Of a stretch of DNA of 64,000 bases, positions 36,233-57,423 are shown piece after piece. The first letter of the stretch is position 1. Each line of letters starts with the position of its first letter. The position numbers were made by a program, and so were the translations under genes. Below the pieces are notes generated by a model. It made no database searches and was not told the origin of the DNA. It saw only the letters and a list, made by a program, of their open reading frames with translations. Source of the DNA: Curvibacter sp. (GTDB lineage: Bacteria > Pseudomonadota > Gammaproteobacteria > Burkholderiales > Burkholderiaceae_C); assembly GCA_020248905.1 (NCBI GenBank), contig JADCGR010000017.1:1-64000 (forward strand). The letters run 5' to 3'.

Positions 36233-37300
36233 ATGATTCTTGTGACGGGCGGCGCCGGGTTTATTGGCGCCAACTTCGTGCTCGACTGGCTGGCTCAGAG
36301 CAACGAGCCGGTTCTCAACCTCGACAAACTCACCTACGCCGGTAACCTGGAGAACCTGGCCTCGCTGCAAGGCGATGCGCGCCATATCTTTGTGCACGGC
36401 GACATTGCAGACAGCGCCCTGCTGGCGCGCCTGCTGGCCGAGCACAAGCCGCGTGCCGTCATCAACTTCGCCGCAGAGTCGCACGTGGACCGTTCCATCC
36501 ACGGCCCCGAAGACTTCATCCAGACCAACATCGTCGGCACCTTCCGCCTGCTGGAGGCCGTGCGCGCCTACTGGAGTGGGGCTGGGGGCGGGCTGGACGA
36601 GGCGGGCAAGGGGGCGTTTCGCTTCCTGCATGTCTCCACCGACGAGGTCTATGGCTCGCTTGGCGCCAGTGCCCCGGCCTTTACCGAGCAGCACCGCTAC
36701 GAGCCCAACAGCCCCTATAGCGCCAGCAAGGCCGCCAGCGATCATCTGGTGCGCGCCTATCACCACACCTATGGTCTCCCGGTGCTCACGACCAACTGCA
36801 GCAACAACTACGGGCCCTACCATTTCCCTGAGAAGCTCATCCCGCTCATGATCGTCAACGCCCTGGCTGGCAAGTCGCTGCCTGTTTACGGCGACGGCAT
36901 GCAAATCCGCGACTGGCTCTACGTGAAAGACCACGCAAGCGCCATCCGCTGCGTGCTGGCAGCCGGGCAGCCGGGCGAGGTCTACAACGTCGGGGGCTGG
37001 AACGAGAAGCCCAATATCGAGATCGTTCACACCCTGTGCGCGCTCCTCGACGAACTGCGTCCGCGCGCCGACGGCAAGTCCTACCGCGAGCAAATCAGCT
37101 ACGTGAAGGACCGCCCGGGCCACGACAGGCGCTACGCGATCGACGCCCGCAAGCTGGAGCGCGAGCTGGGCTGGAAGCCCGCCGAAACCTTCGAGACCGG
37201 CATCCGCAAGACGGTTCATTGGTACCTGGACCACCCGGACTGGGTGGCCCATGTGCAATCCGGCGCCTACCGCGATTGGGTGCGGAAGCAATACGCATGA
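36233..37300 (+). CDS. rfbB: dTDP-glucose 4,6-dehydratase
   Basis: A 355-residue SDR enzyme, second step of dTDP-L-rhamnose synthesis. N-terminal [19 protein letters not shown] is the NAD-binding Rossmann loop; [26 protein letters not shown], and the catalytic [22 protein letters not shown] (Tyr and Lys) are typical, as is [17 protein letters not shown]. It converts dTDP-glucose to the 4-keto-6-deoxy intermediate. It is the first gene of the polysaccharide locus. The ATG overlaps the following rfbD start by ATGA at its end. A plausible but weak ribosome site precedes it. Confidence 0.96.
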
Positions 37301-38202
37301 AGATTCTTCTGCTCGGCAAGAACGGCCAGGTCGGCTGGGAGCTGCAGCGTGCCCTCGCGCCTCTGGGCGAACTGGTGGCGCTGGATTTTGCCAGTCAGGA
37401 ACTGTGCGGCGATCTGGGTAACACCGAAGGGCTGCAGCAGACCGTGGCGCAGGTGCGTCCCCAGGTCATCGTGAATGCGGGTGCCCATACCGCCGTGGAC
37501 AAGGCAGAAAGCGAGCCCGAACTGGCCTATCGCCTCAACGCCGAGGGGCCCGCCGTGTTGGCGCAGGCTGCGGCGCAACTGGGCGCCCTTCTGGTGCACT
37601 ACAGCACGGACTACGTCTATGACGGCAGCGGCAGCCGGCCCTGGCGCGAGGAAGACGCCAAGGGGCCGCTGAGCGTCTACGGGCGCACCAAGCTGGCGGG
37701 TGATGAGGCCATCGCGGCCAGCGGCTGCCGGCATCTGATTTTCCGCACGAGCTGGGTTTATGGAGCGCGGGGCGGCAACTTCCCCAAAACCATGCTGCGC
37801 CTGGCGCGCGAGCGCGAGCAGCTGAATGTGATTGACGACCAGATCGGCGCGCCCACGGGCGCCGACCTGCTGGCCGACGTCACGGCGCACGCGATCCGCC
37901 ATCTGCTGCCGCCGCAGCGGCACAACGACCTCACGCCCTGCGGTGTCTATCACCTCGCCGCAGCGGGAGAAACGTCCTGGCATGGCTACGCTCGGTTCGT
38001 GCTGGAGCGGGCGCAGCGGATGGGACACACCCTCAAGGCCGGGCCGGCGCAGGTGCTGCCCATCTCAACGTCGGCCTACCCCACACCTGCCCGCAGGCCC
38101 CAAAATTCGCGGCTGGACACCGGGCGGCTGCAGAACACCTTTGGTCTGCGTCTGCCCCCCTGGCAGGCGGGCGTACAGCGCATGCTTGACGAAACTCTTT
38201 GA
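37297..38202 (+). CDS. rfbD: dTDP-4-dehydrorhamnose reductase
   Basis: A 301-residue SDR reductase, last step of the dTDP-L-rhamnose pathway. [18 protein letters not shown] is the NAD(P) loop, [19 protein letters not shown] and [12 protein letters not shown] follow, then the active-site [12 protein letters not shown] and [13 protein letters not shown]. Translationally coupled to rfbB (ATGA). It reduces the 4-keto sugar to dTDP-L-rhamnose. Its 3' end is followed at once by the vapBC operator. Confidence 0.96.
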
Positions 38203-38233
38203 TGCATTGATTCGATAGAATCACTGCATCAAA
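38198..38233. promoter_or_regulatory. Nested dyad operator upstream of vapBC
   Basis: TTTGATGCA (38198-38206) pairs with TGCATCAAA (38225-38233), and inside it TGATTC (38208-38213) pairs with GAATCA (38218-38223). Both dyads share one centre (38215.5). It overlaps the end of rfbD and precedes the vapB start by 17 bases, as expected for autorepression by a VapBC complex. TAGAAT (38216-38221) may be a -10 element. Confidence 0.75.
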
Positions 38234-38250
38234 TCCGACCTTCGATCGTC

Positions 38251-38487
38251 ATGCGCACCACCCTGGACATTGAAGACGATGTTTTGCAGGCCGCCAAAGA
38301 AATGGCGCGCCGCGAACATGTGAGCGCGGGCCAGGTGATTTCCAGGCTCGCCCGTCAGGCCATGACCGCATCCAGCACGTCGACAGGCGCCACGCCCACA
38401 GTGGCCGGTTTCCGGCCCCTGCCGGCCCGGGGGGCGCTGGTGAGCAATGACCAGGTCAACGCCCTGCGGGAGTCCGAAGGCGTCTGA
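38251..38487 (+). CDS. vapB: VapB-type antitoxin (ribbon-helix-helix)
   Basis: A 78-residue protein opening with MRTTLDIEDDVLQAAKEMARRE, a ribbon-helix-helix DNA-binding start of the Arc/CopG type found in VapB, then SAGQVISRLARQAM. The C-terminal part (GFRPLPARGALVSNDQVNALRE) is the toxin-binding tail. The gene sits between rfbD and rfbA and overlaps the toxin by one base (TGATG). It binds the operator upstream of it. Confidence 0.88.
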   Translation: MRTTLDIEDDVLQAAKEMARREHVSAGQVISRLARQAMTASSTSTGATPTVAGFRPLPARGALVSNDQVNALRESEGV

Positions 38488-38936
38488 TGGTTGCCTTGCT
38501 CGATGTCAATGTCCTTATTGCTTTGCTGGATGCGGGTCATGTCCATCACGCCATGGCAACCCAGTGGCTGGCTGACCATCTCGAAGGAGGCTGGGCTTCC
38601 TGTCCCCTGACACAGAATGGCTGCATCCGCATCCTGTCCCAGCCCGGCTATCCCAACCCGGCCCCGGCGGCCGATGTGGCGGCCCGCCTGGCCGAGGCGG
38701 CCCGCCACCCGGCCCATCACTTCTGGCCCGATGCCGTCAGTGTGCTGGCACCCGGGTTGCTGCGGTGGGACCGGCTTCTGAGCGGCCGCCACATCACCGA
38801 CGCCTACCTGCTGGCGCTCGCCGTGCAGAACAAGGGCCGCTTTGTGACGCTGGATCGCGGCATCCCCCTGGCTGCCGTGCCCGGCGCACAGGCACGACAT
38901 CTGGTGGTGCTGGCCGAAGCCAGAACGCCTCGCTGA
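38487..38936 (+). CDS. vapC: VapC-type PIN-domain toxin
   Basis: A 149-residue PIN nuclease. [21 protein letters not shown] carries the first catalytic Asp (residue 6), [12 protein letters not shown] is the middle conserved block (Glu usually, here Gln), and [12 protein letters not shown] (Asp) and [10 protein letters not shown] (Asp) complete the metal site. Such VapC toxins cleave tRNA or rRNA. It is translationally coupled to vapB. It is embedded in the dTDP-rhamnose operon, with rfbA starting 16 bases after its stop. Confidence 0.88.
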
Positions 38937-38952
38937 CCCAAAAGAAGCGACC

Positions 38953-39852
38953 ATGACCCAACGCAAAGGCATCATCCTCGCGGGCGGCTCCGGCACCCGG
39001 CTGCACCCGGCCACCTTGGCCATCAGCAAGCAGCTGCTGCCGGTTTACGACAAGCCCATGGTCTATTACCCGCTGACCACGCTCATGCTAGCGGGCATGC
39101 GCGACATCCTGCTCATCAGCACGCCGCAGGACACGCCGCGTTTTGCCCAGCTGCTGGGCGACGGCAGCCAGTGGGGTATGAACCTGCAATACGCCGTGCA
39201 GCCCAGCCCGGATGGCCTGGCGCAGGCCTTCATCATCGGTGAGCACTTTGTCGGTAACAACCCCAGCGCGTTGGTGTTGGGCGACAACATCTTCTACGGC
39301 CACGATTTCCAGGGCCTGCTGGGCGCGGCCGACGGCAAGACCCAGGGCGCCACGGTGTTTGCCTACCATGTCAACGACCCCGAGCGCTATGGCGTGGTGG
39401 CGTTTGACGCGCAAGGCCAGGCCAGCAGCATCGAAGAAAAACCCAAGGTGCCCAAGAGCAGCTATGCCGTCACGGGCCTGTATTTCTACGACCAGCAGGT
39501 CGTAGACATCGCCAAGGCCGTCAAACCCAGCGCGCGCGGCGAGCTGGAGATCACCACCGTCAATCAGACCTACCTGGAGCGCGGCCAGCTCGGTGTGCAG
39601 ATCATGCAGCGCGGCTACGCCTGGCTCGACACCGGCACGCACGACAGCCTGCTGGAGGCCAGCCAGTTCATCGCCACGCTGGAGCACCGCCAGGGCCTGA
39701 AGATCGCCTGCCCGGAAGAAATCGCCTGGCGCCAGGGCTGGATCAACAGCGCCCAACTGGAGAAGCTGGCCCAGCCGCTGGCCAAGAACGGGTATGGGCA
39801 GTACTTGCTGCGCCTGCTGAAGGAGGCTCCTTCTTCCAAACTGCAGGGGTGA
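38953..39852 (+). CDS. rfbA: Glucose-1-phosphate thymidylyltransferase
   Basis: A 299-residue nucleotidyltransferase, first step of dTDP-L-rhamnose synthesis. [36 protein letters not shown] is the signature, with further blocks [13 protein letters not shown] and [22 protein letters not shown]. It ends [14 protein letters not shown]. The gene follows vapC by 16 bases (AAAAGAAGCGACC before the ATG). It makes dTDP-glucose for RfbB. Confidence 0.96.
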
Positions 39853-39885
39853 GCTTGCCGCCCGGGTCTTCATAGAATCCTGCCC

Positions 39886-40191
39886 ATGCGACTCACACCC
39901 CGGCAGATCGAAAGCCTCAAGCGAACCGCTGCTGAGGTATTTGGCGCACAGGCGCGTATCAGCCTGTTTGGATCGCGCGTCGACGATCAGCGACGCGGCG
40001 GAGATATCGACCTCTACGTCTCTGGCGCGCAGTTGTCTCTGGAGGATCAAGTGGACGCCAAGCTCAGGTTCCTGGTCAAGGCCAAACAAGAGCTGGGCGA
40101 CCAGCGGATTGATCTGGTGTTTGCCCCCGCAGGGGGGCAAACTGTTCTGCCCATCCACCGCATGGCGGAGGAAACCGGGGTGTTGTTATGA
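39886..40191 (+). CDS. mntA: MntA-type minimal nucleotidyltransferase antitoxin
   Basis: A 101-residue minimal nucleotidyltransferase with LFGSRVDDQRRGGDIDLYV: Gly29-Ser30 and the metal aspartates Asp40 and Asp42, the GSX10DXD motif. In the characterised family the enzyme adds AMP units to a tyrosine of the partner HepT toxin. The gene overlaps hepT by ATGA. It is the second toxin-antitoxin pair embedded in the rhamnose operon, between rfbA and rfbC. Confidence 0.88.
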   Translation: MRLTPRQIESLKRTAAEVFGAQARISLFGSRVDDQRRGGDIDLYVSGAQLSLEDQVDAKLRFLVKAKQELGDQRIDLVFAPAGGQTVLPIHRMAEETGVLL

Positions 40192-40736
40192 GTCTGCAGG
40201 AAATTGTCGAATTCAAGCTTCAGCCGGCATTGGGCGAGTGCACCACGCACCGCCAACGCCTGCACCGGGCGTGGCTGGAAGCCAGGGACTTTGAAGCGTT
40301 GCGGCCTGCCGCGACATTCTCGTTGAGTGATGAAGAGGTTCGTACGCTCGATCAACTGGTCTTCCGCTTTGGTCGTCTGCAGGATGCCATGGGCGCGCGC
40401 CTGCTGCCAGCGCTTCTGCAACTGACCCAGGAGTGGCGCGATGACGAGCCCTTTCTGGACAAGCTCAATCGGGCCGAGAAGCTTGGCATGATCCCCAGCG
40501 CCGAGCAGTGGCAACTGCTGCGGGAGCTGCGCAACCAGACTGCGCATGAGTACCCCGCGCAACCAGAGTTGACGCGGGCTAACCTGCTTCGCCTGGTGGA
40601 GCGCGTTCCCGTGCTGGAGCGGGCGCATGAACAGTTGTCTGAATTCGCGCGGCAACGTGCAAGTGCACAAGGTCTTGCTGGCTTGGGTGGTGCAGAGCCC
40701 AAACTTCAGGCGGTACCCAGGCGCCCAACCCCATGA
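40188..40736 (+). CDS. hepT: HEPN-domain toxin HepT-like
   Basis: A 182-residue alpha-helical protein with a HEPN RNase motif: R115-N-Q-T-A-H120-E-Y122, i.e. RX4HXY, the exact form in HepT where the tyrosine is AMPylated by MntA. The rest is helical with EEVRTLDQLVFRFGRLQDAMG. The C-terminal ~25 residues are low complexity and may be non-essential. It is longer than typical HepT (about 140). Start and stop overlap neighbours by ATGA on both sides, so rfbC translation is coupled to it. Confidence 0.85.
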   Translation: MSLQEIVEFKLQPALGECTTHRQRLHRAWLEARDFEALRPAATFSLSDEEVRTLDQLVFRFGRLQDAMGARLLPALLQLTQEWRDDEPFLDKLNRAEKLGMIPSAEQWQLLRELRNQTAHEYPAQPELTRANLLRLVERVPVLERAHEQLSEFARQRASAQGLAGLGGAEPKLQAVPRRPTP

Positions 40737-41281
40737 ATATCATCCCCACCACCATCCCCGACGTGAAGATCCTTGAGCCTAAGGTCTTCGGCGACTCGCG
40801 CGGCTTCTTCTTTGAAAGCTACAACGAACGTGCCTTCTGGCAGGCCACGGGGCTGGACGTGGGCTTCGTACAGGACAACCATAGCCGCAGCGCGCGCGGC
40901 GTGCTGCGCGGGCTGCATTACCAGGTCCGGCAGCCGCAGGGCAAGCTCGTGCGCGTGGTGCGCGGCAGCGTGTTTGATGTGGCGGTTGACCTGCGCCAGA
41001 GCTCGCCCACGTTTGGCCAGTGGGTGGGCGCCGAGCTCAGCGAAGAGAACCAGCGCCAGATGTGGGTACCCGCCGGATTCGCGCATGGCTTTGTGGTCAC
41101 GAGCGACTCCGCCGACTTCCTCTACAAGACCACGGACTACTACGCGCCAGAGCACGAGCGCTGTCTGGCTTGGAACGACCCGTCTGTGGGTGTCGCCTGG
41201 CCGCTGGCGGGGATCACGCCGCAACTTTCGGCCAAGGACCTGCAGGGCCAGGCGCTGGCGCAGGCTGAGGTGTTTGCATGA
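40733..41281 (+). CDS. rfbC: dTDP-4-dehydrorhamnose 3,5-epimerase
   Basis: A 182-residue cupin-fold epimerase: EPKVFGDSRGFFFESYN, QDNHSRSARGVLRGLHYQ with the catalytic His, GSVFDVAVDLRQSSPTFG, and PAGFAHGFVVTSDSADFLYKTTDYYAPEHE with the catalytic Tyr region. It converts the 4-keto-6-deoxyglucose nucleotide to the L-lyxo isomer before RfbD acts. Coupled by ATGA to hepT and manC. It completes the rfbBDAC set. Confidence 0.96.
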   Translation: MNIIPTTIPDVKILEPKVFGDSRGFFFESYNERAFWQATGLDVGFVQDNHSRSARGVLRGLHYQVRQPQGKLVRVVRGSVFDVAVDLRQSSPTFGQWVGAELSEENQRQMWVPAGFAHGFVVTSDSADFLYKTTDYYAPEHERCLAWNDPSVGVAWPLAGITPQLSAKDLQGQALAQAEVFA

Positions 41282-42720
41282 CGGTGCCGATCCGCCCCGT
41301 CATTCTTTGCGGGGGCAGCGGTACCCGTTTGTGGCCGCTGTCGCGCAAGGCCTTTCCCAAGCAATTCATCCCGCTGTTGGGTGACAAGTCACTCTTGCAG
41401 CTTACGCTGGAGCGCGTAGCGCCGCTGGCGGCTGGTGTGCCTGACGCCATTGCCTGCGTGGCCGCAGAAGAGCACCGTTTCCTCGTGGCCGATGTGGCCG
41501 CGCAGGCGGGCCTGAGCGTACGCCAGATCCTCGAGCCGCAGGCGCGCAACACCGCTGCGGCCATGGCCCTGGCCGCACTGGCCAGCGAGCCCGATGCGCT
41601 GCTGCTCTTCTGCCCTGCTGATCATCACATCCCCGACGCGCAGGCTTTCTGCGCGATGGTGCAGGGCGCGGTGCCGGCAGCCCAGGCCGGCCGCCTGGTG
41701 ACCTTCGGCGTGCAGCCCAGTGTTCCGAGTACGGCCTACGGCTATATCCAGAAAGGCGCTGCCTCCGGGGCCGGCTTCGAGGTGGTGCGCTTTGTCGAGA
41801 AGCCCGCGCAGGACAAGGCGCTGGAATTCCTGGCCAGCGGGCAGTACCTCTGGAACGCGGGCATCTTCCTCATGCGCGCGGCCGACCTGCTGGCCGCGCT
41901 GCAGGCCCATGCACCGGACATCCTGGATGCCTGCCGCCAGGCCATGCGTGCCCCCCAGCGTGATGGCCTGTTCCTGCGGCCCGACGCGCAGGCCTTCGCT
42001 GTGTGTCGCAGCCAGTCTATCGACTACGCCGTGATGGAGCAGGCACGCAATGTCAGCGTCTATCCCTTTGTCGGGGGCTGGAGCGATGTGGGCAGCTGGA
42101 ACGCCGTGGCGCAGCTGGCCGAGCCGGATGCCGATGGCAACCGCAGCGGTGGCGACTTGCGGCAAGCCCATCATCTGCGCGCGATGGATACCTATATCTA
42201 CGCTGGAGGGCAGCGCCCGGTGGTGGCGTTGGGCACAAAGAACCTGCTGGTCATCGATACGCCGGACGCCCTGCTGGTGGCGGACGCATCACACGCCGAA
42301 GCCGTCAAGGAAGTGGTGGCCAAGCTGGAGGCGCTCGACGCCTCCCAGGCTGTGCAGCACCGCCGCGTGGCGCGCCCCTGGGGTTGGTACGACAGCATTG
42401 ACATGGGCGAGCGCTTCCAAGTCAAGCGCATCATGGTCAAGCCCGGTGCCTCGCTCTCGCTGCAAATGCACCATCACCGCGCCGAGCACTGGGTGGTGGT
42501 CAGCGGCACGGCCGAGGTGACCAATGGCAACCGCGTTCTGGTGCTGGGCGAAAACCAGAGCACCTACATCCCCATAGGCCAGAAGCATCGCCTGGCTAAC
42601 CCAGAAAAGGTGCCGCTAGAGATCATCGAAGTGCAGAGCGGTGCGTATCTGGGGGAAGACGACATCGTGCGGTTCGAGGACAGCTACGGCCGGGACACCA
42701 GCAAGCGCGAGCAGACATGA
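41278..42720 (+). CDS. manC: Mannose-1-phosphate guanylyltransferase/mannose-6-phosphate isomerase
   Basis: A 480-residue bifunctional enzyme. N-terminal guanylyltransferase: [41 protein letters not shown]; the SDVGSW motif. C-terminal isomerase cupin: [43 protein letters not shown] with metal His residues. It supplies GDP-mannose for the polysaccharide. Overlaps rfbC and wecB by ATGA. The usual partner manB/algC is not in the window. Confidence 0.94.
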
Positions 42721-43892
42721 GACCGCGGGTTCTAGTTGTTTTTGGAACCCGGCCCGAGGCCATCAAGATGGCCCCATTGGTGCAGGCTTTACGGGCTGAT
42801 GCTCGCTTCGACACAAGAGTATGTGTCACGGGACAGCACCGCCAGATGCTGGACCAAGTGCTTGAGTTGTTCGCCATTCGCCCCGATCATGATCTGGCCG
42901 TTATGCAACCCGGTCAGGACCTGACTGACATCACGATGGCCATTCTGCATGGCATGCGTGGCGTGTTTGCGCAAACCCGGCCGGACATGGTGCTGGTGCA
43001 CGGCGATACGACCACGACCTTTGCCGCCACGCTGGCGTCTTATTACCAGCGCATTCCTGTGGGCCACGTCGAGGCAGGGTTGCGCACGGGTGACCTTTAT
43101 GCCCCATGGCCGGAGGAGGCCAACCGCAAGCTGACCGGCGCGCTGGCCACTTTGCATTTCGCGCCAACGGACGGCGCTCGCCAGAACCTGCTGCGCGAGG
43201 GCGTGGCACCGCAAACGATCGTTGTCACCGGCAACACCGTTATCGATGCGCTGCTCCAGGTGGTCGGTCGGCTGCGGCGAGATAGCGCCTTGCATCAGGA
43301 GCAGGCGGCGCGCTTCGCCTTTCTGCGGCCCGAAGCGCAGATGGTACTGGTCACCGGTCACCGGCGCGAGAGCTTTGGCGGCGGGTTTGAGCGTATCTGC
43401 CAGGCGCTGTCGCGCACGGCGGCCCAGTTTCCCAACGTCGACATCGTCTATCCGGTGCATCTCAACCCGCAGGTACGCGAGCCGGTGAACCGGCTGCTGG
43501 CCGGCATCGCCAATGTCCACCTGATCGAACCACAGGATTACCTGCCCTTCGTCTACCTCATGGAACGTGCCCACGTCATCCTGACCGACTCTGGTGGCAT
43601 TCAGGAAGAGGCGCCGGCGCTGGGCAAGCCTGTGCTGGTGATGCGCGAGACTACCGAGCGCCCAGAGGCGGCGCAGGCAGGCACGGTGCGGCTGGTCGGG
43701 ACAGGGGTGGAAGCGATCGAGGGTGCGTTAGCTGAATTGCTGACCGACCCCGAGGCCTGTCGCCGCATGAGTATCGCGCACAATCCCTACGGGGATGGTC
43801 GGGCCTGCGGCCGTGTCATCGAGACCCTGGCGCAATTCTTCGCAAGCAGTGACGTCAAACAGTTAGAGAAACAGAGGGCAGGCGCCTCATGA
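42717..43892 (+). CDS. wecB: UDP-N-acetylglucosamine 2-epimerase (non-hydrolysing)
   Basis: A 391-residue enzyme: [72 protein letters not shown], and [13 protein letters not shown]. It converts UDP-GlcNAc to UDP-ManNAc, the substrate of the next gene product, WecC. Coupled by ATGA on both sides. Confidence 0.95.
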
Positions 43893-45157
43893 GCCTTGAC
43901 ACCATCTCCATCATCGGCCTAGGCTATATCGGACTTCCTACCGCGGCCGTCTTCGCCAGCCGCAAGAAACGCGTGATCGGCGTGGACGTCAATCAGAAGG
44001 CGGTGGATATCATCAACCGAGGCCAGATCCACATCGTGGAGCCGGAACTGGACATCATCGTGCATGCGGCGGTTAGTGCCGGTTACCTGCGTGCGACCAC
44101 GCAGCCGGAGCCGGCGGATGCCTTTCTCATTGCGGTACCCACGCCGTTCAAAGACGACCACCAGCCCGATCTGGACTACATTGAGTCAGCCTGCCGCACG
44201 ATCGCGCCTGTACTGCGCAAGGGTAATCTGGTCATTCTGGAATCAACGTCGCCGGTCGGTGCCACTGAACAAATGGCTGACTGGCTGGCTCAGTTCCGAC
44301 CTGACCTGACCTTCCCGCAAACGCACGGCGAGGACTCAGACATCCGAGTCGCGCATTGCCCGGAGCGTGTGCTGCCGGGCCATGTACTGCGCGAGCTGGT
44401 GCAGAACGACCGCGTCATCGGCGGCATGACCCCGCGCTGCTCGGAGGCAGCGTCGAGGCTCTACAAGATTTTTGTCGAAGGCGACTGCGTTATCACCAAT
44501 GCCCGCACGGCCGAAATGTGCAAGCTGACTGAAAACAGCTTTCGCGATGTGAACATCGCGTTTGCCAATGAACTTTCCATCATCTGTGACAAGCTCGACA
44601 TCAACGTCTGGGAACTGATCCGCCTTGCCAACCGCCATCCACGCGTCAACATCCTGCAGCCCGGGCCGGGCGTAGGCGGGCATTGCATCGCGGTGGATCC
44701 CTGGTTCATTGTCAGCAAGACGCCGGACGAGGCAAAGCTGATCCGTGCGGCGCGGGAGGTGAACGATAGCAAGCCCGGTTGGGTGCTCGACAAGGCCAAG
44801 GTAGCCATCGCCGAGTACCTTCAGACACATCCTGGTATGACCGCGCGTGACGTCACTGTTGCCTGCTTCGGTCTGGCTTTCAAGCCGGATATTGACGATC
44901 TGAGGGAGAGTCCAGCGTTGGAGATCACACATCACATCGCCCAGCAACATCCGGGCGCCGTTTGGGCCGTCGAGCCTAACATTGATGAGCTGCCGAAAGA
45001 TCTTCGTGGCAGCATAAAACTGACGTCCCTTGACGAGGCGCTCGACCTGGCGCATATCAAGATTCTGCTGGTTGACCACAAGCAGTTCAAGGGCATTCAG
45101 CGGTCAACACCACATATGGAGTATCTGATTGATACCCGAGGTATCTGGCATGGATAA
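43889..45157 (+). CDS. wecC: UDP-N-acetyl-D-mannosamine dehydrogenase
   Basis: A 422-residue UDP-sugar 6-dehydrogenase, highly WecC-like. Marks: [22 protein letters not shown], the STSPVG loop, [23 protein letters not shown], and [17 protein letters not shown] with the catalytic Cys, then [18 protein letters not shown]. It makes UDP-ManNAcA from the WecB product, giving an acidic amino sugar for the O-chain. It overlaps the glycosyltransferase by eight bases. Confidence 0.95.
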
Positions 45158-46262
45158 GATGGTGGTTCGCTCAAGCATTGAGCAACTGCGGGAAATCCAG
45201 CAAGACATTGGCGGAAAGCCCATCTTGCACTTCGGCAGTCTGGCTGGGTGGCCGCACACCGTGGCCAGAGTCAGCCGACATCTTGGTGTGGCGGCAGAGA
45301 ACGTCGTGCATGTCTACAAGGACGTCCTCGATCTGGATCGCAAGCTCCCGTATGACAAATCGGTCTTCCAGAAGGCAGATCCTTTTCATGGCAAGGTGCT
45401 GTCGACCTTACGGTTTCTAAGGGACATACCTCGCCACTATTGTTTGGCGCACTACCACAGCACCAACTTGCTGCACCGCGAGTACCATTTCCTGCTCGAA
45501 GGTCCTTATCTCAAGCGTCACAGGGTGCCTATGGTGTTGTCTCTTGGCGGTGGCGACGCTCGCATTGACGGGCAGGCATCGCGGATGAATCCGTACTACC
45601 ACAAGAAGCCCAGCTTCTGGCATGACCTGCGGATCAAGTTGCGTTGGTGGTCCTGGAGCAGGAGCGTGGCGGTGTGCGCCTCCGATCCTGAAATGGCAAT
45701 TATTGCATCTGACTACTTTGAAGACGTCCAGATCTTTCGCCAGCCAGTAGAAATGCACCGCTTTGCATTCAATCCGCCCTCGCCCGCAAAAGAGGTCCCT
45801 TTGCTGTTGCATGTGCCGACTAGTCCGCAGTTTAAGGGTACCAAGTACATCGTTCGCGCGGTAGAGAATCTGAAGAATAAAGGTTTGAAGTTTGATTTCA
45901 GAATGGTTCGCCAATTGACCCAAGAGCAGTTTTTTGAGTTGCTTAGCTCTTGCGACGTCTATATCGACGAATTGCGTTGTGGGACACATGGAATGACAGC
46001 GGTAGAAGCCATGGCCATGGGCAAGCCGACAATCTCGTATATCCGCGAAAACCTTCTCGACAGATACCCCTCAGATCTGCCCTTGGTCAACGCAAACCCC
46101 GACACCATTGAGCAAACGTTGGAGCTGCTGATACTGGATGCCCAACTCCGGCATCAGATCGGTGTCGCCAGCAGAGCGTACGTCGAGCGCTACCACGATG
46201 CAGACGTAGTGCTGGAGGGTCTCGCAAAGATTTACGTGGGTCTTCTACGCAAGACCCTTTGA
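45150..46262 (+). CDS. Glycosyltransferase (GT4-like)
   Basis: A 370-residue GT-B protein. N-terminal PILHFGSLAGWPHTVARVSRHL; the C-terminal donor-binding end has VPTSPQFKGTKYIVRAVENL and CDVYIDELRCGTHGMTAVEAMAMGKPTISYI, the E-X7-E-like region of family 4. It transfers one sugar of the repeat unit; donor unknown. The ATG at 45150 has GAGG eight bases upstream and overlaps wecC. From here the DNA is less GC-rich than the rfb genes, hinting at separate acquisition. Confidence 0.83.
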   Translation: MDKMVVRSSIEQLREIQQDIGGKPILHFGSLAGWPHTVARVSRHLGVAAENVVHVYKDVLDLDRKLPYDKSVFQKADPFHGKVLSTLRFLRDIPRHYCLAHYHSTNLLHREYHFLLEGPYLKRHRVPMVLSLGGGDARIDGQASRMNPYYHKKPSFWHDLRIKLRWWSWSRSVAVCASDPEMAIIASDYFEDVQIFRQPVEMHRFAFNPPSPAKEVPLLLHVPTSPQFKGTKYIVRAVENLKNKGLKFDFRMVRQLTQEQFFELLSSCDVYIDELRCGTHGMTAVEAMAMGKPTISYIRENLLDRYPSDLPLVNANPDTIEQTLELLILDAQLRHQIGVASRAYVERYHDADVVLEGLAKIYVGLLRKTL

Positions 46263-47575
46263 GCTTGAAACCAGAAGCTGGCCGGAAAGGGCCCATCAAT
46301 CGCGTGTCAGCACAAAGCCGCAATCAACTGAAGGCCTTGTTTGGTAGCAACGTATGGGTCAACCTTATCTACCTCGCCACTTTTTTGGTGATGGGTGGGC
46401 TGCTGAACTCAGTCGAGTTTGGGACTTTCCGGGTCGCGCAAGCCTATTTGTCAGTAGCAGTCAGCATCGCCATGCTGGGCCTCAATACGGCAGTTACTCA
46501 TCAGTTTCCACTGTTCACACCTGATCAGAAAGCCCGCGCGTGGGTGTTGGCCAGACGGATTGTCGTCATCACTTCAATCTGCGTCGGCCTGATTGTCTAT
46601 GGCCTGGTTCCGTCGGTCCAGCAGTCGCCAAGCCCTTTGCAGGAGTTGCTTTACCTGCTTTGCTTCCCCGTCGCGGTAGTTGGGGCTAGTTTGTGCAATC
46701 TGCTTTTGTCCGCGTATCAGGCCCGGGGCGACCTCAATGGCTATGCGCGCCTCCAGGCGCAATGGAAGACCACGGTTTTTGTCTTTGGGCTGGCAGGGGG
46801 CGCCTTGCTTCAGGCGCAAACGGTTTTGATCGCTATGGCAATGGCTTATGCGGGTGTCTACTTACTGCAATATCGAAACACTTTGGCCGTCGATCGGGCG
46901 GTTGAGCCAGGCAATACTCCGTTAACGGGTTTCGTGAGACCGCTGTTCAGAAGTGGCATATGGCCGTTTGCGTCCATTTGTGTATCGGCGATCTACGCAA
47001 ATATCGAGTTTCTGTATGTGGATTCAGGGGATCTCAGCTCGGGTGTGGCGGGGGCGTACTCGCTGGCTTCGTTGATCTTCATTGGCGGAGCGGCATTCTT
47101 CATGCCCCTTCAGACCTATGCAGGCAGTCTGGTGGTCAATCGAAGAATCGGGCTTGTGGGGCTGCTGAAACTACAATGCATCTGCTTGGCAGCTGTTTGT
47201 TTGACGGCCCTGGCAGCGCTAGGCTTGGCCTATGGGTTGAACCATGTTCTCCCACAGAAGTTCAACAGCGTTTTTCTCGATTTCGCTGGACTGGTCAGCA
47301 TCAAGCTGGGTCTATGGGGTAGTTATGCAGTTGTTGGCAGCGTCCTCAACTACCTTGATAAAGGATTGGAGAGTTTCCTTCTCACAGTGATTTGCTTGAT
47401 GGGTCTAGGACTGGGATCGCTTCTGATAGGTGGTGTCGATTCACTGCGCGAAATGGTGGTGTTGCAGATTGCATCTGGCGTCGTCCTATTGGGGGGCAGT
47501 ATGTATCTGGTCGTGGTCGGCTTCAGGGGGAGACCCATCAAACGGATGGTAGATAACGAGCATCTGGAGAGGTAA
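46259..47575 (+). CDS. Polysaccharide flippase (Wzx-like) membrane protein
   Basis: A 438-residue protein with 12 or so hydrophobic helices (from GSNVWVNLIYLATFLVMGGL to VLLGGSMYLVVVGF), lacking catalytic signatures; the MATE/PST-type flippase is the best reading. It would flip the undecaprenyl-linked repeat unit across the inner membrane. The start is uncertain: TTG at 46259 overlaps the previous stop, and a GTG at 46303 just before SAQSRNQLK is an alternative. It is the only multi-helix protein in the polysaccharide region, so the Wzy polymerase is not accounted for. Confidence 0.7.
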   Translation: MSLKPEAGRKGPINRVSAQSRNQLKALFGSNVWVNLIYLATFLVMGGLLNSVEFGTFRVAQAYLSVAVSIAMLGLNTAVTHQFPLFTPDQKARAWVLARRIVVITSICVGLIVYGLVPSVQQSPSPLQELLYLLCFPVAVVGASLCNLLLSAYQARGDLNGYARLQAQWKTTVFVFGLAGGALLQAQTVLIAMAMAYAGVYLLQYRNTLAVDRAVEPGNTPLTGFVRPLFRSGIWPFASICVSAIYANIEFLYVDSGDLSSGVAGAYSLASLIFIGGAAFFMPLQTYAGSLVVNRRIGLVGLLKLQCICLAAVCLTALAALGLAYGLNHVLPQKFNSVFLDFAGLVSIKLGLWGSYAVVGSVLNYLDKGLESFLLTVICLMGLGLGSLLIGGVDSLREMVVLQIASGVVLLGGSMYLVVVGFRGRPIKRMVDNEHLER

Positions 47576-48705
47576 TGAAAGTTCCATTTATTGACATTGC
47601 CCGGTACGAAACTGGGTTTCAGCAGCGATGGCTGGACAAGGTGGCCTCCATGTCGGCTGCGGCGCAGTTTATTGGCGGGTCGGAAGTCAATACTCTGGAG
47701 GACCGGTTGAAGTCAGCCCTGGATGTGCGGCATGCAGTGGGCTGTGCAAACGGTACGGATGCACTGCAGCTCGGCTTGCGGGCCCTTGGTGTGGGAGCGG
47801 GGGATGTGGTGCTTGTTCCGAATGCTACCTTCTGGGCCACGTTTGAAGCAGTTGTGAATGTGGGGGGGGTGCCGGTTACTGTGGATATCGACTTGATGGA
47901 TGGCGGCATTGACCACCAGGCTTTTGAGGAAGCAGTCAAGGCCGAAAGGCCCAAAGCGGCTGTGGTGGCGCATCTCTACGGCTGGGGAACAAGTCATATC
48001 CGTGCACTTCGCGCCCTGTGCCTTCAACACGACGTGCAGTTGCTGGAGGACGGGGCCCAATGCTTCGGAGTGACTTACCAGGGTGAGTCGCTATTCAAGG
48101 GTGCACGGATCGCAACGACATCTTTTTATCCAGCCAAGGTTTTGGGCGCGGCTGGCGACGCCGGGGCTGTGTTCACTGATGACGCCGCGTTGGCCGAGCG
48201 CGCTCGGCGATTGGGAAACCACGGCCGCACGGCGCATTACGGTTATGGCGACGTGGGCTGGAACTCGCGGCTGGACGCCTTGCAGGCGGCATTCCTCAAC
48301 CTGTCGATGAACTACATCGATGCGCGAATTCAATCGCGTCGGCGTTCGGCTGAGGAATACCGGCGTCGATTGCCTGCCACGGGGTTGACACCTATGAACC
48401 CCCCAGCGGGCTATGTGGAAAACGGGTATTGCAACGTTTGTCTGGTTTCCGATACGAGCAAGAAGCAGCGCTTGGAGGCATTGCTCAAGGCTCGCTCCAT
48501 TGGCTTCGGAAATATTTACCCTGGTGCGATGTCCGTCCAGGAGGGAGCGGCAAAGTACCTCAAGAAGCACTATGGCGGGACCAATGCTGAGAGATTATCG
48601 AAAACGGTCTTGAATCTCCCCCTGTTCGCTTACATGAAGCCAGAAGAGCTAGATTATGTGATTACTGCGGTGCAGGATGCGGTAATGAATGGAGCAGCGG
48701 AATGA
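47575..48705 (+). CDS. DegT/DnrJ/EryC1 aminotransferase (WbpE-like)
   Basis: A 376-residue PLP-dependent sugar aminotransferase. CANGTDALQLGLRALGVG and VPNATFWATFEAV form the nucleotide-sugar and PLP pocket; SFYPAKVLGAAGDAGAVFT has the lysine that binds PLP. With the WbpD-like and WbpB-like genes that follow it fits installation of a 3-amino group on a 3-keto UDP-hexosaminuronic acid. It overlaps the flippase stop by one base (TAATG) and wbpD by ATGA. Confidence 0.87.
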   Translation: MKVPFIDIARYETGFQQRWLDKVASMSAAAQFIGGSEVNTLEDRLKSALDVRHAVGCANGTDALQLGLRALGVGAGDVVLVPNATFWATFEAVVNVGGVPVTVDIDLMDGGIDHQAFEEAVKAERPKAAVVAHLYGWGTSHIRALRALCLQHDVQLLEDGAQCFGVTYQGESLFKGARIATTSFYPAKVLGAAGDAGAVFTDDAALAERARRLGNHGRTAHYGYGDVGWNSRLDALQAAFLNLSMNYIDARIQSRRRSAEEYRRRLPATGLTPMNPPAGYVENGYCNVCLVSDTSKKQRLEALLKARSIGFGNIYPGAMSVQEGAAKYLKKHYGGTNAERLSKTVLNLPLFAYMKPEELDYVITAVQDAVMNGAAE

Positions 48706-49205
48706 GCGGCGAGTCCAAGGTCTATATCCATCCGACCGCGCATGTGGCGGCCAAGTCCCTGATCGGTGAGGGCACCAAGGTCTGGATCAATGTCCAGATC
48801 CGGGAGAACGCCTCCATCGGCGACAACTGCATCCTGTCCAAGGACGTCTACGTCGACCATGGCGTGTCCATCGGCCATCGCTGCAAGATCCAGAACAGTG
48901 TCTCGGTCTACAACGGCGTGACCCTCGGCGATGACGTCTTCATCGGACCGAACGTCACCTTCACCAACGACCGGGTGCCGCGGGCATTCAATCCCGAATG
49001 GAAGATAACGCCGACCCGCATCGCGACCGGGGCTAGCATCGGCGCGAACTCGACGATCGTCTGCGGTGTGACCGTGGGTGAATTCGCGATGGTCGCTGCC
49101 GGCAGCGTGGTGACCCGGGATGTCCCCCCCTACACCCTGGTGATGGGGAATCCGGCCCGCCCGGCTGGCAAGATCGACAGAATGGGAAACCGCATTGCGG
49201 AGTGA
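48702..49205 (+). CDS. wbpD: Hexapeptide-repeat N-acetyltransferase (WbpD-like)
   Basis: A 167-residue left-handed beta-helix enzyme. Hexapeptide turns run from VYIHPTAHVAAKSLIGEG to VTVGEFAMVAAGSVVTRDVPPYTLVMGNPARP. The YNGVTLGDDVFIGPNVTFTND segment is characteristic of WbpD. It acetylates the 3-amino group using acetyl-CoA after WbpE-like action. Tight coupling with its neighbours supports this pathway. Confidence 0.9.
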   Translation: MSGESKVYIHPTAHVAAKSLIGEGTKVWINVQIRENASIGDNCILSKDVYVDHGVSIGHRCKIQNSVSVYNGVTLGDDVFIGPNVTFTNDRVPRAFNPEWKITPTRIATGASIGANSTIVCGVTVGEFAMVAAGSVVTRDVPPYTLVMGNPARPAGKIDRMGNRIAE

Positions 49206-49210
49206 GCGAG

Positions 49211-50167
49211 ATGAACGATAAACCGATACGTGTGGGCCTCGTCGGGCTGGGGCGCATGGGCCAGAACCACCTGCGCATCCTTTCCATGCTCAAGGGCGTG
49301 GAGCTGGCTTTCGTGGCGGACGCGGATGCGGCTGTTGCCAGCCGGCATGGCGCGACCCATGGCGTACCGGGGGTGAGCAGCCTCGACGGCGTGCTGGATT
49401 CTGCGGATGCCGTGGTGATTTGCACGCCGACAGTGACCCATGCCGACTACATCCGCATGGTGGCCGGCAAGGTACGCAATATCTTCGTCGAGAAGCCGCT
49501 GGCTGACACCCTGGAGCAGGCCGAGCGCGTGGCCCGCTTCGCGGCGGAGCAGGGCCTGAACGTGCAGGTCGGTTTCATCGAGCGCTTCAACTCGGCCGTG
49601 CAGGGGCTCAAGCAGGTGCTGGACAAGTCCGAGCGCGTGATCAGCATCGACTTCACCCGCACTAACAAGCTCAGCGCCCGCATCACCGACGTCGATGTCG
49701 TGACCGACCTGATGATCCATGACATCGATCTCGCGCTGTACCTCAATGGGGCGGCGCGTTCCGTGGCGGCCCACGGCTTTGCGCACGGGGAGATGATCGA
49801 CTTCGCCTCCGCCCTCATCACGCACGAGAACGGCCGCTTCTCACGCATCCAGGCCAGCCGCATCACCGAGAAGAAGATGCGCCTGATCGAGGCAACCTGC
49901 GCGGACATGTTCGTCGACTGTGAGCTGCTGCGCAAGGAGATCATCATCAGCCGCAAGTCCGAGATCCGCCAGGCCGAAGGGCAGCCTTACACGATCTCGG
50001 CCGTTCAGGAGGCCATTGAGGTGCGCCCTCAGGAGGCGCTGTTGTCCGAGCTGCAGGCTTTTGTAGCGAGCTGCCGCGGCCAGCGTCCGGCCGACCTGCC
50101 CGGCGTCGAGGCTGGCCTGGCCGCCATGCAGATCAGCGACGAAATCCAGAAGGCAGTGGCAGCATGA
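49211..50167 (+). CDS. Gfo/Idh/MocA oxidoreductase (WbpB-like)
   Basis: A 318-residue NAD-dependent oxidoreductase: VGLVGLGRMGQNHLRI is the NAD loop, NIFVEKPLADTLEQAE is the conserved EKP motif, and NVQVGFIERFN plus DLMIHDIDLALYLNG follow. It probably oxidises the 3-hydroxyl of the UDP-uronic acid to supply the keto group for the WbpE-like transaminase. ATG at 49211 has GGAG nine bases upstream; a GTG at 49202 is an alternative. It overlaps the next gene by ATGA. Confidence 0.87.
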   Translation: MNDKPIRVGLVGLGRMGQNHLRILSMLKGVELAFVADADAAVASRHGATHGVPGVSSLDGVLDSADAVVICTPTVTHADYIRMVAGKVRNIFVEKPLADTLEQAERVARFAAEQGLNVQVGFIERFNSAVQGLKQVLDKSERVISIDFTRTNKLSARITDVDVVTDLMIHDIDLALYLNGAARSVAAHGFAHGEMIDFASALITHENGRFSRIQASRITEKKMRLIEATCADMFVDCELLRKEIIISRKSEIRQAEGQPYTISAVQEAIEVRPQEALLSELQAFVASCRGQRPADLPGVEAGLAAMQISDEIQKAVAA

Positions 50168-51141
50168 CCCGGCATCGCGAACTCTCCGGCAAGACCGTGC
50201 TGGTCACGGGCGGTGCCGGCTTCATCGGCAGTCACCTGGTGGACCGATTGCTTGCCGAGGGCGCCGCCCACGTGGTAGTGATCGACAACATGTTCCTGGG
50301 CTCGGAGGAGAACCTGACCGAGGCGCTGGCCACGGGCAAGGCCAGCCTCTACAAGGACGATGCCGAATTCGTCACCAGCCTAGACTACATCTTCAACCGG
50401 CATCCAATCGACGTGGTCTTCAACTGCGCGACGAAGGCGCTCAACTACTCGTTCATGAACCCGGCCAACGCCTTCGGCACCAACGTGACGGTGGCGCTCA
50501 ATCTCCTGGAGCTGCAGCGCCGGGGCGCTTTCAAGTCGCTATGCCATTTCTCGACTTCCGAGGTATACGGCTCGGCGGTCTATGAGCCGATGGACGAGAA
50601 GCACCCTCGCAACCCGACCACGACCTATGCCGCCGGCAAGGCAGCAGCCGATCTGGCCGTGGAAAGCTATGTGCACATGTTCGGCCTGGACGGCTTCATC
50701 GTACGCCCCTTCAACAACTATGGTCCGCGCCAGAACCACCGTGGCCTGCTTGCCGGCGTGATCCCGCTGACGGCGTGGCGAATCCTGACCGGTGGCGCGC
50801 CGGAAATTCACGGCGACGGCAAGCAGAGCCGCGATTTCATCCACGTCCGCGACACGGTGGATGCCGTGGTGAAGCTGTTTGGCGTGCTCCCTGCCGGCGA
50901 GTCGGTCAACATCTCCACGGACAACCAGATCGCCATCGGCGAGCTGGTGACGCGCATCGCCGCCATGCTGGGCTACCAAAAGGAGATCGTGCGCAAGCCG
51001 GCGCGCCAGGTAGATGTGCTTTGCCATAACGCCAGCAACCAGAAGGTGCGCGCGCTCATCGACTATTCGCTGACCGACTTCGATGCCGGTCTGCGCGAGA
51101 CACTGGACTGGTACGTGAGTCGCCCTGGGGTTTCGAAATGA
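50164..51141 (+). CDS. NAD-dependent epimerase/dehydratase (SDR)
   Basis: A 325-residue extended [38 protein letters not shown], and YAAGKAAADLAVESYVHMFG with the YXXXK pair, then RPFNNYGPRQNHRGLLAGVIPL. It belongs to the nucleotide-sugar 4,6-dehydratase/4-epimerase group. With the next aminotransferase and acetyltransferase it could make an N-acylated amino-deoxy sugar. Coupled by ATGA to both neighbours. Confidence 0.85.
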   Translation: MTRHRELSGKTVLVTGGAGFIGSHLVDRLLAEGAAHVVVIDNMFLGSEENLTEALATGKASLYKDDAEFVTSLDYIFNRHPIDVVFNCATKALNYSFMNPANAFGTNVTVALNLLELQRRGAFKSLCHFSTSEVYGSAVYEPMDEKHPRNPTTTYAAGKAAADLAVESYVHMFGLDGFIVRPFNNYGPRQNHRGLLAGVIPLTAWRILTGGAPEIHGDGKQSRDFIHVRDTVDAVVKLFGVLPAGESVNISTDNQIAIGELVTRIAAMLGYQKEIVRKPARQVDVLCHNASNQKVRALIDYSLTDFDAGLRETLDWYVSRPGVSK

Positions 51142-52232
51142 ACAATATTCGTCTGATGCGGCCCTATATCAGCTACGACGAGGTCGAGGCTGAATTCCGC
51201 GGCGTCTTCGGCAGCGGCATGTTCACCCGTGGTGAGCACGTCGAGGCTTTCCGCAAGGAGCTGTCGCAATTCACTGGCGCACGGCACGTGCATCTGGCCA
51301 CGTCGGCCACCACGGCGCTCTGGGTCTGTCTCAAGCTGCTGGACATCGGTCCGGGCGATGAGGTGGTCGTCTCGGATTTCTCCTTCCCGGCGGCGGCCAA
51401 CGTGGTCGAGGACCTGGGTGCCACGCCCATCTTCGCCGACGTGTCCCGCGACACCTACAACATGGAAGCGGCCACGCTGGCGCCGCTGCTGGGGCCGCGG
51501 ACCAAGGCCGTCATCTTCGTGGATGCGCTGGGCAACCCCTCCGGCCTGCATGACGTCGGCGCCCTGTGCCGCAGCCGCGGCATCCCGCTGATCGAGGACG
51601 CAGCCTGCGCGATCGGTAGCTCAGAGGGCGGCGCGCTCTGCGGCTCGGTCGCCGACCTGACCTGTTTCAGCTTCCACCCCCGCAAGCTCATCAGCACCGG
51701 CGAGGGCGGGGCGATCACCACCGATCGCGACGACTGGGCGCAGTGGCTGGACGTCAAGCTCGCCCACGGCGCGCGCGGCATGAAGGGCGTGGCGCTCGAT
51801 TTCGTGGACTACGGCTACAACTTCCGCTTGCCCGAGCTCCAGGCCATCATGGGGCGCAAGCAACTTGCGAAGATTGACAGCATTGTGGATGAGCGAAATC
51901 AAGTCCGTGATGCTTATCGTTCGCTGCTCGAGCCCATGGGCTTTTTGCCCCAGCGGGTTAATGCAGATGTGCGCTTCAACGTGCAGTCCTTGGTGTTCTC
52001 GGTACCTCCCGATTGCAACCGCAACCGCCTAATTGCCGGCCTGAAGGCTAGCGGTATCGAATCGACCATAGGTACATACGCGATGAGCGCCTCCACCTAC
52101 TACGCGCGGAAGTACGCCGTTCAGAACACGAATTCACACTGGCTAGAGGAAAATACGCTGACATTGCCGTGTTATGGAGGTGTCGATATCTCGAGAGTTT
52201 GTGCTGCGATAAAGGGAGGGCTATGTCGTTAG
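51138..52232 (+). CDS. DegT/DnrJ/EryC1 aminotransferase, second
   Basis: A 364-residue PLP aminotransferase: TSATTALWVCLKLLDIGPGDEVVVSDFSFPAAANV, LIEDAACAIGSSEGG, FSFHPRKLISTGEGG with the PLP lysine, and YNFRLPELQAIMG. It probably aminates the keto-sugar made by the preceding SDR. Base composition changes inside the gene: the first two thirds are GC-rich while the end after about 51.86 kb turns AT-richer, continuing into the next gene, suggesting a recombination junction. Confidence 0.87.
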   Translation: MNNIRLMRPYISYDEVEAEFRGVFGSGMFTRGEHVEAFRKELSQFTGARHVHLATSATTALWVCLKLLDIGPGDEVVVSDFSFPAAANVVEDLGATPIFADVSRDTYNMEAATLAPLLGPRTKAVIFVDALGNPSGLHDVGALCRSRGIPLIEDAACAIGSSEGGALCGSVADLTCFSFHPRKLISTGEGGAITTDRDDWAQWLDVKLAHGARGMKGVALDFVDYGYNFRLPELQAIMGRKQLAKIDSIVDERNQVRDAYRSLLEPMGFLPQRVNADVRFNVQSLVFSVPPDCNRNRLIAGLKASGIESTIGTYAMSASTYYARKYAVQNTNSHWLEENTLTLPCYGGVDISRVCAAIKGGLCR

Positions 52233-53460: not shown

Positions 53461-53461
53461 C

Positions 53462-54235: not shown

Positions 54236-54392
54236 AACCTGAAGCGTTGAAGAGCTAGCAGATTTTTGCTTCATGCGTCTACCCCATAACTAGCGATATA
54301 GACGTCTGACGCTACTGATGAAGATACATTCAAAGGTTACCAGAGTCGCCTATGTTTTTCCCATACAGAGCAGATTTGGATGAGGTATTGAA

Positions 54393-55109: not shown

Positions 55110-55132
55110 CCTTTGGTCTGGAGTTGATCGAA

Positions 55133-56080: not shown

Positions 56081-56281
56081 CGGTGTACGGAGCTCGCCTG
56101 CCTCCTAATGGGTGTCTGTTTCGCGTTTGACGGACGGCTCAATCCGATTTGGCGGATTGCCCCGGCAGAATCGGACGCAGGCGCTTGGCCAAGAATGTCT
56201 GAGGAGACTATCTTGTTAGTCTTAGCCTTGTTTACTCGCCTTCTCAAAACTCAAGGGTAGACCCCCACTGGACTAACTCAA

Positions 56282-57418: not shown

Positions 57419-57423
57419 CCATT

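Follow-up and report, generated by a model that had tools for sequence, protein, structure and literature searches.

The 64,000-nucleotide (nt) stretch of Curvibacter sp. contig JADCGR010000017.1 analysed here, referred to below as the window, carries a dTDP-rhamnose (rfb/rml) operon in which two toxin-antitoxin (TA) modules, a VapBC pair and a pair of a minimal nucleotidyltransferase (MNT) and a HEPN-like protein, are placed between rfb genes, none of which is broken. These insertions are probably part of a wider pattern in the family and the order, in which the rfb operon and other surface-polysaccharide clusters appear to collect TA modules of several kinds. The reading that we tentatively favour is that the modules may well be addictive passengers, anchoring a surface-sugar locus that would often be exchanged or lost. 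Loss or replacement of the locus would remove the short-lived VapB, or the modifying MNT, while the toxin, presumably no longer neutralised, would persist and cut RNA, and through such killing on loss the allele that bears the modules would be retained. Because they lie inside the operon, and overlapping or closely spaced stop and start codons couple them to it, the modules would also travel with it on exchange. Support for this reading comes from the clustering of the VapC tree, an excess of PIN genes, the presence of several TA families per operon, their uniform orientation, an apparently decayed copy of the operon in one relative, and the occurrence of MNT-HEPN pairs near polysaccharide genes. 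In what follows G-numbers denote the genomes of relatives, G000 being the window's own genome, and L-numbers denote fetched loci.

The genes run on the plus strand in the order rfbB-rfbD-vapB-vapC-rfbA-mnt-hepn-rfbC-manC (Table 1), and the gene order and single strand given in the first-pass annotation of the window are thus confirmed by its sequence. All four dTDP-rhamnose enzymes are present, each scoring above an NCBIfam equivalog cut-off. The overlaps of stop and start codons described earlier are likewise found, as ATGA between rfbB and rfbD (37297-37300), mnt and hepn (40188-40191) and hepn and rfbC (40733-40736), and as TGATG between vapB and vapC (38485-38489); an additional ATGA overlap, absent from that description, joins rfbC to manC (41278-41281). 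The intergenic gaps measure 48 nt (rfbD-vapB), 16 nt (vapC-rfbA) and 33 nt (rfbA-mnt). A promoter and terminator scan of the operon region gave no match to a sigma-70-type promoter and no terminator-like site at the rfb/TA junctions, its two terminator-like matches lying inside mnt (minus strand) and inside hepn. Co-transcription of the modules with the rfb genes is presumed. No integron, phage or integrative and conjugative element (ICE) genes were found among the open reading frames (ORFs) of the window that were scanned with Pfam.

VapC is a predicted PIN-domain RNase in which D6, D105 and D123 are invariant in an alignment of 10 sequences; PIN domains usually have a further acidic residue, which was not located in this alignment. 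VapB falls under every Pfam cut-off and under those of NCBIfam, its Pfam scores having DUF6364 (E 0.0001) as its best match ahead of RHH_4 (E 0.0011) and VapB_antitoxin (E 0.005), and a vapB match adjoins vapC in the 30 VapC loci compared. With the antitoxin gene first, overlapping genes and a palindromic dyad upstream, the layout is that of a VapBC (type II) module. The dyad, which the first-pass annotation had already placed here, is real; there is an overlap between its left arm and the stop codon of rfbD, and positions 38216-38221 form a TAGAAT box. These features leave room for a regulatory coupling, in which VapB or VapBC on the dyad would repress an internal promoter and might block read-through, and in which decay of the antitoxin under stress would shift the levels of rfbA and rfbC, and hence of rhamnose-bearing polysaccharide. 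An autoregulated operator, however, is usual for vapBC at any location. TGATGC/GCATCA repeats and a TANAAT box do recur, by eye, upstream of vapB in G006, G106 and G134, but when the upstream regions of the four rfb-embedded vapB genes were given to a dyad finder, only G000 and, more weakly, G006 were scored and no dyad was reported in G106 or G134. The closeness of vapC to rfbA, with no terminator-like site between them, would suit such a coupling, as would the second role in biofilm dispersal reported for a Sulfolobus VapB antitoxin in the available part of PMC10127717. Against it stand the lack of a sigma-70-type match in the region and the presence of different antitoxins at the same junction, which speaks against one conserved regulatory circuit. 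Overall we consider the coupling unlikely, and its proposed effect on the polysaccharide equally so.

Analysis of relatives proved informative about where VapBC is found. The genus is represented by 26 genomes, 15 of them with completeness of 90% or more and contamination of no more than 5%, and 11 below that standard. VapC is present in two of the 26, both times between rfbD and rfbA. RfbA itself was found in 86 of 100 relatives searched. The first-pass annotation had proposed comparing related rfb operons for the same insertions; among 29 other rfbA loci with 1.5-kb flanks VapBC was recovered in G006 only, and MNT-HEPN in none. The opposite outcome that it had allowed for, modules at random sites unconnected with rfb, was not what VapBC showed, as the genus copies and the nearest relatives from other genera, in G106 (rfbA-vapBC-rfbC) and G134 (rfbD-vapBC-rfbA), all lie in rfb operons. 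Across the family a VapC match was obtained in 67 of 250 genomes, and eight further VapBC loci are close to glycosyltransferase or DegT genes, L200 having a DegT gene alone. In a tree of 29 VapC sequences the window protein and its three nearest relatives, all of them rfb-embedded, form one set (support 96/89), with the rfbD-rfbA junction occupied in G000, G006 and G134 and the rfbA-rfbC junction in G106. The 12 VapC loci with at least two polysaccharide markers, a generous count given that two marker queries may match one gene, make up one side of a branch (86/82) and imply a single change, against a shuffled mean of 9.5. The 15 with at least one marker imply 4 changes against 9.9, and none of 500 shuffles was as low. 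A marker is present in 9/9 VapC loci at 63% identity or more and in 5/19 below (p = 0.0003, at a cut chosen post hoc). The wider VapC family, at less than 60% identity, is found on plasmids (102 records). A single vertical insertion of VapBC was rejected as a full account, since two junctions are used and G106 falls between the same-genus copies (92/78, weak).

The clustering of rfb-embedded VapC and its nearest kin by type of locus bears on the main rival to the addiction reading, which holds that polysaccharide loci turn over fast and that TA modules are simply common mobile cargo in a tolerated hotspot, bringing the locus no benefit. This we regard as possible rather than probable. Polysaccharide loci of Enterobacteriales are indeed recombination hotspots (PMC7305143, available part), and MNT-HEPN insertions are known from unrelated operons, such as the Thermus lysine operon described in the accessible portion of PMC2701414. 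In addition to the clustering on the tree, the placement of the modules between genes and, within rfb, their common orientation are less easily accommodated by this explanation.

Relatives carry other TA families at these junctions, and the guarding role suggested in the first-pass annotation, whereby loss of the rhamnose genes would be lethal, gains in plausibility from this. None of the present results, however, bears out its description of the operon as one for an essential sugar. The rfb operon of G106 contains three modules plus a PIN remnant: a MazE/AbrB-type antitoxin (below cut-off) and PIN at rfbB-rfbD, a VapB and PIN at rfbD-rfbA, and the PIN remnant together with a window-type VapBC at rfbA-rfbC. 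That of G134 contains two, with a MazE/AbrB-type antitoxin (again below cut-off) and PIN at rfbB-rfbD and VapBC at rfbD-rfbA. The rfbD-rfbA junction also holds Phd/YefM and PIN in G308, a FitA-like antitoxin and PIN in G259, and VapB and a sub-threshold PIN in G195 (20.4 against 23.6 bits in Pfam), the last of which was not recovered by the genome-wide PIN search. In the rfb inserts of the family PIN toxins are accompanied by five types of antitoxin, and MNT-HEPN is present as well; apart from HEPN the toxins are all PIN, while the antitoxin family and the PIN subtype vary. All 12 modules at internal rfb junctions of the family (G006 included) point along rfb.

In G108 (Comamonadaceae bacterium 2FH) an intact rfbB-rfbD-rfbA-mnt-hepn-rfbC operon is preceded by an array of a PIN gene, a 50-residue rfbD fragment, VapBC, a HEPN gene without MNT in which Leu replaces the catalytic Arg, and an antitoxin-PIN pair. 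Because the first modules stand in the same order as in G106, and the HEPN after them matches the window, this one case suggests an older copy of the rfb operon in which the sugar genes decayed first.

Three loci from outside the family were chosen because of their HEPN hits, and are therefore offered as illustrations and not counted. G073 (L254:1188-3504) has three tandem MNT-HEPN pairs between rfbC and rfbD, belonging to three families (HepT-like, GS-X9-DXD and NTase_sub_bind type). In G319 (L257:9309-11000) DUF433-DUF5615 adjoins an MNT-HepT-like pair, both between rfbA and rfbC. G316 has Phd with a weak PIN match, and a gene for a 23S_rRNA_IVP four-helix protein between rfbB and rfbA (L189:8884-9267). 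In the window's own genome eight PIN genes were found, at least three of them on the contig of the window between 38 and 70 kb: one in rfb, one with a MazE-type antitoxin after a Polysacc_synt_2 gene, and one after argB (named by eye). The latter two lie just past the window, at L280:3970-6248 (contig 9, 67.4-69.8 kb), where the MazE-type antitoxin-PIN pair follows the last polysaccharide genes. The argB-adjacent PIN resembles, at 88% over 82 residues, the PIN remnant in the rfb operon of G106.

A survey of the family allowed these insertions to be compared with chance. Matches to rfbC and rfbB were obtained in 235 and 236 of the 250 genomes respectively, and their pairing rests on the best 150 places of each; G108 was entered in the rfbB list by hand, and figures without it were also computed. 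Among the matches listed, 104 genomes have rfbB and rfbC on one strand within 15 kb, with 13 gaps greater than 2.4 kb. TA genes are present in 7 of these 13 inserts (G000, G106, G134, G108, G308, G259 and G195). The other six, which the hotspot explanation can claim, contained no PIN, MNT or HEPN by tblastn, other TA families not having been systematically searched for; inserts of this kind include a gene for a glycosyltransferase, one for an export protein and a Wzz match below threshold. With an average of 5.7 PIN genes per genome (145 genomes), random placement between genes predicts 0.43 PIN genes at 312 rfb junctions, where 9 were seen. Without G000 and the sub-threshold G195, 7 were seen against 0.42 expected, with P about 3e-7, a Poisson figure that is too strong because the surveyed genomes are related to each other. 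The excess of PIN genes in rfb operons over random placement is therefore 17- to 21-fold.

The his operon (IGPD to PRA-CH), located in 145 genomes, served as a control. There were 74 pairs, of which 35 had no insert, and 20 gaps of 2.96-3.92 kb were fetched. A PIN module was found in one of the 20 his inserts by tblastn with 14 PIN proteins (other TA families again not systematically searched for), and a PIN profile of 12 rows found none, although this profile also missed one of the two PIN genes in L280. At 220 his junctions 1 PIN gene was seen against 0.30 expected. Calculated per insert, TA genes are more frequent in rfb than in his (7/13 against 1/20, Fisher p = 0.0026; 5/11 against 1/20 without G108 and G000, p = 0.013). 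The his inserts are mostly one mutarotase-like gene, which sits between hisA and hisF in 12 of the 20 (L265-L274, L276 and L279; Aldose_epim in the one scanned) and which counts against the hotspot explanation. In two others a galE-like gene is found instead (L277, L278). The single his operon with a PIN gene favours the hotspot explanation, and the control as a whole leaves that explanation standing.

The identity of the second module had to be revised. In the first-pass annotation it was named MntA/HepT, with exact RX4HXY and GSX10DXD motifs. The HEPN motif is indeed exact (R115-X4-H120-X-Y122), R115 and Y122 being invariant and H120 conserved in at least 90% of an alignment of 19 sequences. 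The MNT motif was misread: the sequence is GS-RVDDQRRGG-DID, or GS-X9-DXD, and this spacing is found in 23/23 aligned MNT sequences, so that the family would be missed by motif searches demanding X10. MNT reaches 14.9 bits against the NCBIfam MntA cut-off of 60, and HEPN 13.7 against 55.8 for HI0074; in Pfam the scores are 13.5 against 31.8 bits for PF08780 and 17.6 against 21 for PF01909, and PF01934 is unlisted for the pair up to E 1. The GS-X9-DXD HEPN-MNT family as a whole passes no cut-off in Pfam, NCBIfam or PADLOC (E 0.001). The HEPN profile does match PDB 1JOG (HI0074) at E 8.1e-5. An MNT antitoxin is the best fold match of the MNT model (E 1.5e-3, probability 1.00), although unrelated folds score nearly as well. 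The HEPN and MNT models are of low confidence (pLDDT 65 and 76, two sequences each), and a HEPN toxin and an MNT antitoxin, respectively, head their PDB matches at E > 0.001. Membership of HepT/MntA class I was rejected, as two defining features, the GSX10DXD spacing and the Pfam families, are lacking. The earlier name is not borne out, both proteins falling below every curated cut-off tried, and by their sequences the two appear to represent a divergent HEPN-MNT family and not a proven HepT/MntA.

This family is found in 2 of the 26 genomes of the genus, the G018 copy being on a 3.1-kb contig which is not the rfb contig, in 20 of 250 genomes of the family when the window protein was the query, and in 40 of 399 of the order when a profile was used. 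A scan of the genome contig collection with HEPN gave one locus. In all 72 MNT-HEPN loci were compared, several of them from the same genome, with flanks of 10 kb at most, which contig ends cut short in some cases. A polysaccharide marker, here a match at E < 1e-10 to any of 14 polysaccharide proteins encoded in the window, was present at 35 of the 72 and in none of 20 random 20-kb segments (p = 1.4e-5); at least two were present at 29, where again two queries may match one gene. Among the neighbours, counted in 108 of 138 called ORFs and in 95 of 139 from the random segments after long, short and apparent wrong-frame ORFs were dropped, the commonest were the overlapping groups of epimerase/dehydratase (15/108) and RmlD-type (12) proteins; epimerase/dehydratase was not among the families with at least two members in the 95 random ORFs. 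The marker label is scattered over the MNT-HEPN tree, with 19 changes against 22 when shuffled and at least 10 forced by supported branches, and this scatter suggests that the association with polysaccharide genes was gained or lost many times. The link to polysaccharide genes is thus real but looser than that of VapBC.

The genome of the window has a second pair of this family on contig 29 (L128:18981-19756), near the contig end, with no marker in its 20-kb segment. At L186:8020-10191 some 1.3 kb of additional DNA interrupts HEPN, and a manC-like gene and other sugar genes are present in the 20-kb segment. In L151, L152 and L172 HEPN is in two frames beside an intact MNT, apparently as a frameshifted toxin inside a tandem MNT-HEPN array. 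The idea that orphan HEPN lose their motif is weak, as of six HEPN with no MNT in the expected place just two proved on inspection to be without it, L121 through a change of Arg to Leu and L192 through truncation.

Several findings weigh against the addiction reading, in addition to the overstated Poisson figure. Among the genomes of the genus 24/26 are without such a VapC, which shows the modules to be dispensable, and 24/26 are without the HEPN family; although 11 of the 26 assemblies are weaker, the locus is not generally held fast. No marker was matched near 37 of the 72 MNT-HEPN loci, and, as the G108 remnant shows, the antitoxin of a module can be lost. Between hisA and hisF of G055 a PIN gene and what by eye is a Phd-like antitoxin lie on the opposite strand (L275:2323-3040), so modules are found in other operons as well, and 19 his operons with larger gaps (including G181, about 5.9 kb) fall outside the control. 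Calculated per operon, the difference between rfb and his is not significant (7/104 against 1/55, p = 0.17; 5/102 against 1/55, p = 0.31). A further proposal, which could be true but which we hold with some doubt, is that surface-polysaccharide loci in these bacteria are addicted serotype loci, where dedicated and recruited TA lineages would bar loss or replacement and displacement would become harder as modules accumulate. The dedicated lineages, as part of the same doubtful proposal, would be one VapBC lineage and one GS-X9-DXD HEPN-MNT family, the others having been recruited.

It has also to be considered whether the modules defend the cell against phage at its receptor locus, with shut-off of transcription or damage to the sugar freeing the RNases and aborting infection. 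The basis for this is that O-polysaccharides are phage receptors and that several TA systems abort infection. The best PADLOC match of the four TA proteins was at E 0.0096 (mnt to PDC-S09), the other three having none, and at E 1e-5 a search of 50,697 phage and 72,556 plasmid records gave no HEPN relative. A defence role of this kind seems to us improbable, and the latter result also led us to reject a plasmid or phage origin of HEPN as something seen directly.

Downstream of rfbC the window continues into other surface-polysaccharide genes (Table 1), of which 15 ORFs were taken in by the Pfam scans, two without a match.

Table 1. Features of the rfb operon, its TA modules and the adjoining cluster in the window
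Feature	Position	Strand	Basis
rfbB/rmlB, dTDP-glucose 4,6-dehydratase	36233..37300	+	TIGR01181, 499.4 bits against cut-off 365.1
rfbD/rmlD, dTDP-4-dehydrorhamnose reductase	37297..38202	+	TIGR01214, 330.4 against 224.05 bits, scanned from 37300
Inverted repeat, presumed VapB(C) operator (putative function)	38198..38233	.	16-nt arms, 94% complementary, 4-nt spacer
vapB, small ribbon-helix-helix-like antitoxin (presumed)	38251..38487	+	Sub-threshold Pfam matches; vapC adjoins
vapC, PIN-domain RNase toxin (predicted)	38487..38936	+	PF01850, 36.4 against 23.6 bits; TIGR00028, 109.4 against 73.6
rfbA/rmlA, glucose-1-phosphate thymidylyltransferase	38953..39852	+	TIGR01207, 523 against 360.65 bits
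mnt, minimal nucleotidyltransferase, presumed antitoxin	39886..40191	+	Polbeta E 0.00055, below cut-off; GS-X9-DXD
hepn, HEPN-like protein, 182 amino acids, presumed RNase toxin	40188..40736	+	RX4HXY; NTase_sub_bind E 0.075, below cut-off
rfbC/rmlC, dTDP-4-dehydrorhamnose 3,5-epimerase	40733..41281	+	TIGR01221, 273.7 against 155.75 bits
Remaining surface-polysaccharide cluster (DegT aminotransferases, epimerase, glycosyltransferases, heparinase-like, others)	41278..62629	+	Pfam scans
manC	41278-42720	+	Named by eye from sequence
wecB-like	42717-43892	+	Named by eye from sequence
wecC-like	43889-45157	+	Named by eye from sequence

Why chromosomes keep so many TA modules is an old question. An operon of known function that repeatedly receives different modules, and that has relatives in which it is empty, offers a natural test of addiction, and the outcome would bear on how surface sugars, which are recognised by phages and predators, are exchanged or held. 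No description of TA modules concentrated in rfb operons was found in the titles and opening parts of abstracts of the open-access papers searched, and the available main text of PMC7305143, which deals with polysaccharide hotspots, has no word starting with 'toxin'. The insertion of TA modules in operons is already known; in the present case several families converge on rfb.

Comparison with known systems helps to place the two modules. The MNT-HEPN pair is like HepT/MntA of Shewanella oneidensis (type VII) and other class I HEPN/MNT pairs, as these are described in the available part of PMC7641770, in having MNT first, overlapping genes, RX4HXY and a GS...DXD motif, and it shows weak profile and fold matches to HI0073/HI0074 and to MNT/HEPN structures. 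It is unlike them in its GS-X9-DXD spacing, in its scores below the PF08780, PF01909 and NCBIfam cut-offs with no PF01934 match, in the length of its HEPN (182 amino acids) and in the frequent location of its family in polysaccharide loci. The VapBC pair is like members of TIGR00028 (Mtu_PIN), with a VapC above the family cut-off, the antitoxin gene first, the TGATG overlap and a palindromic putative operator. It differs in that the nearest sampled relatives of its VapC are all in polysaccharide clusters, either at two rfb junctions or beside glycosyltransferase and DegT genes. In the lysine operon of Thermus thermophilus HB8 an MNT-HEPN pair is likewise inserted between the genes of a metabolic operon and is absent from a relative; the portion of PMC2701414 available presents single cases, whereas here several TA families converge on rfb and polysaccharide loci. 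A stabilising role has also been proposed for TA modules in the Vibrio cholerae superintegron, in prophages and in ICEs (PMC12548467, available part). The superintegron shares with the rfb operon a setting prone to gain and loss in which addiction is proposed, but in the window that setting is a chromosomal biosynthetic operon.

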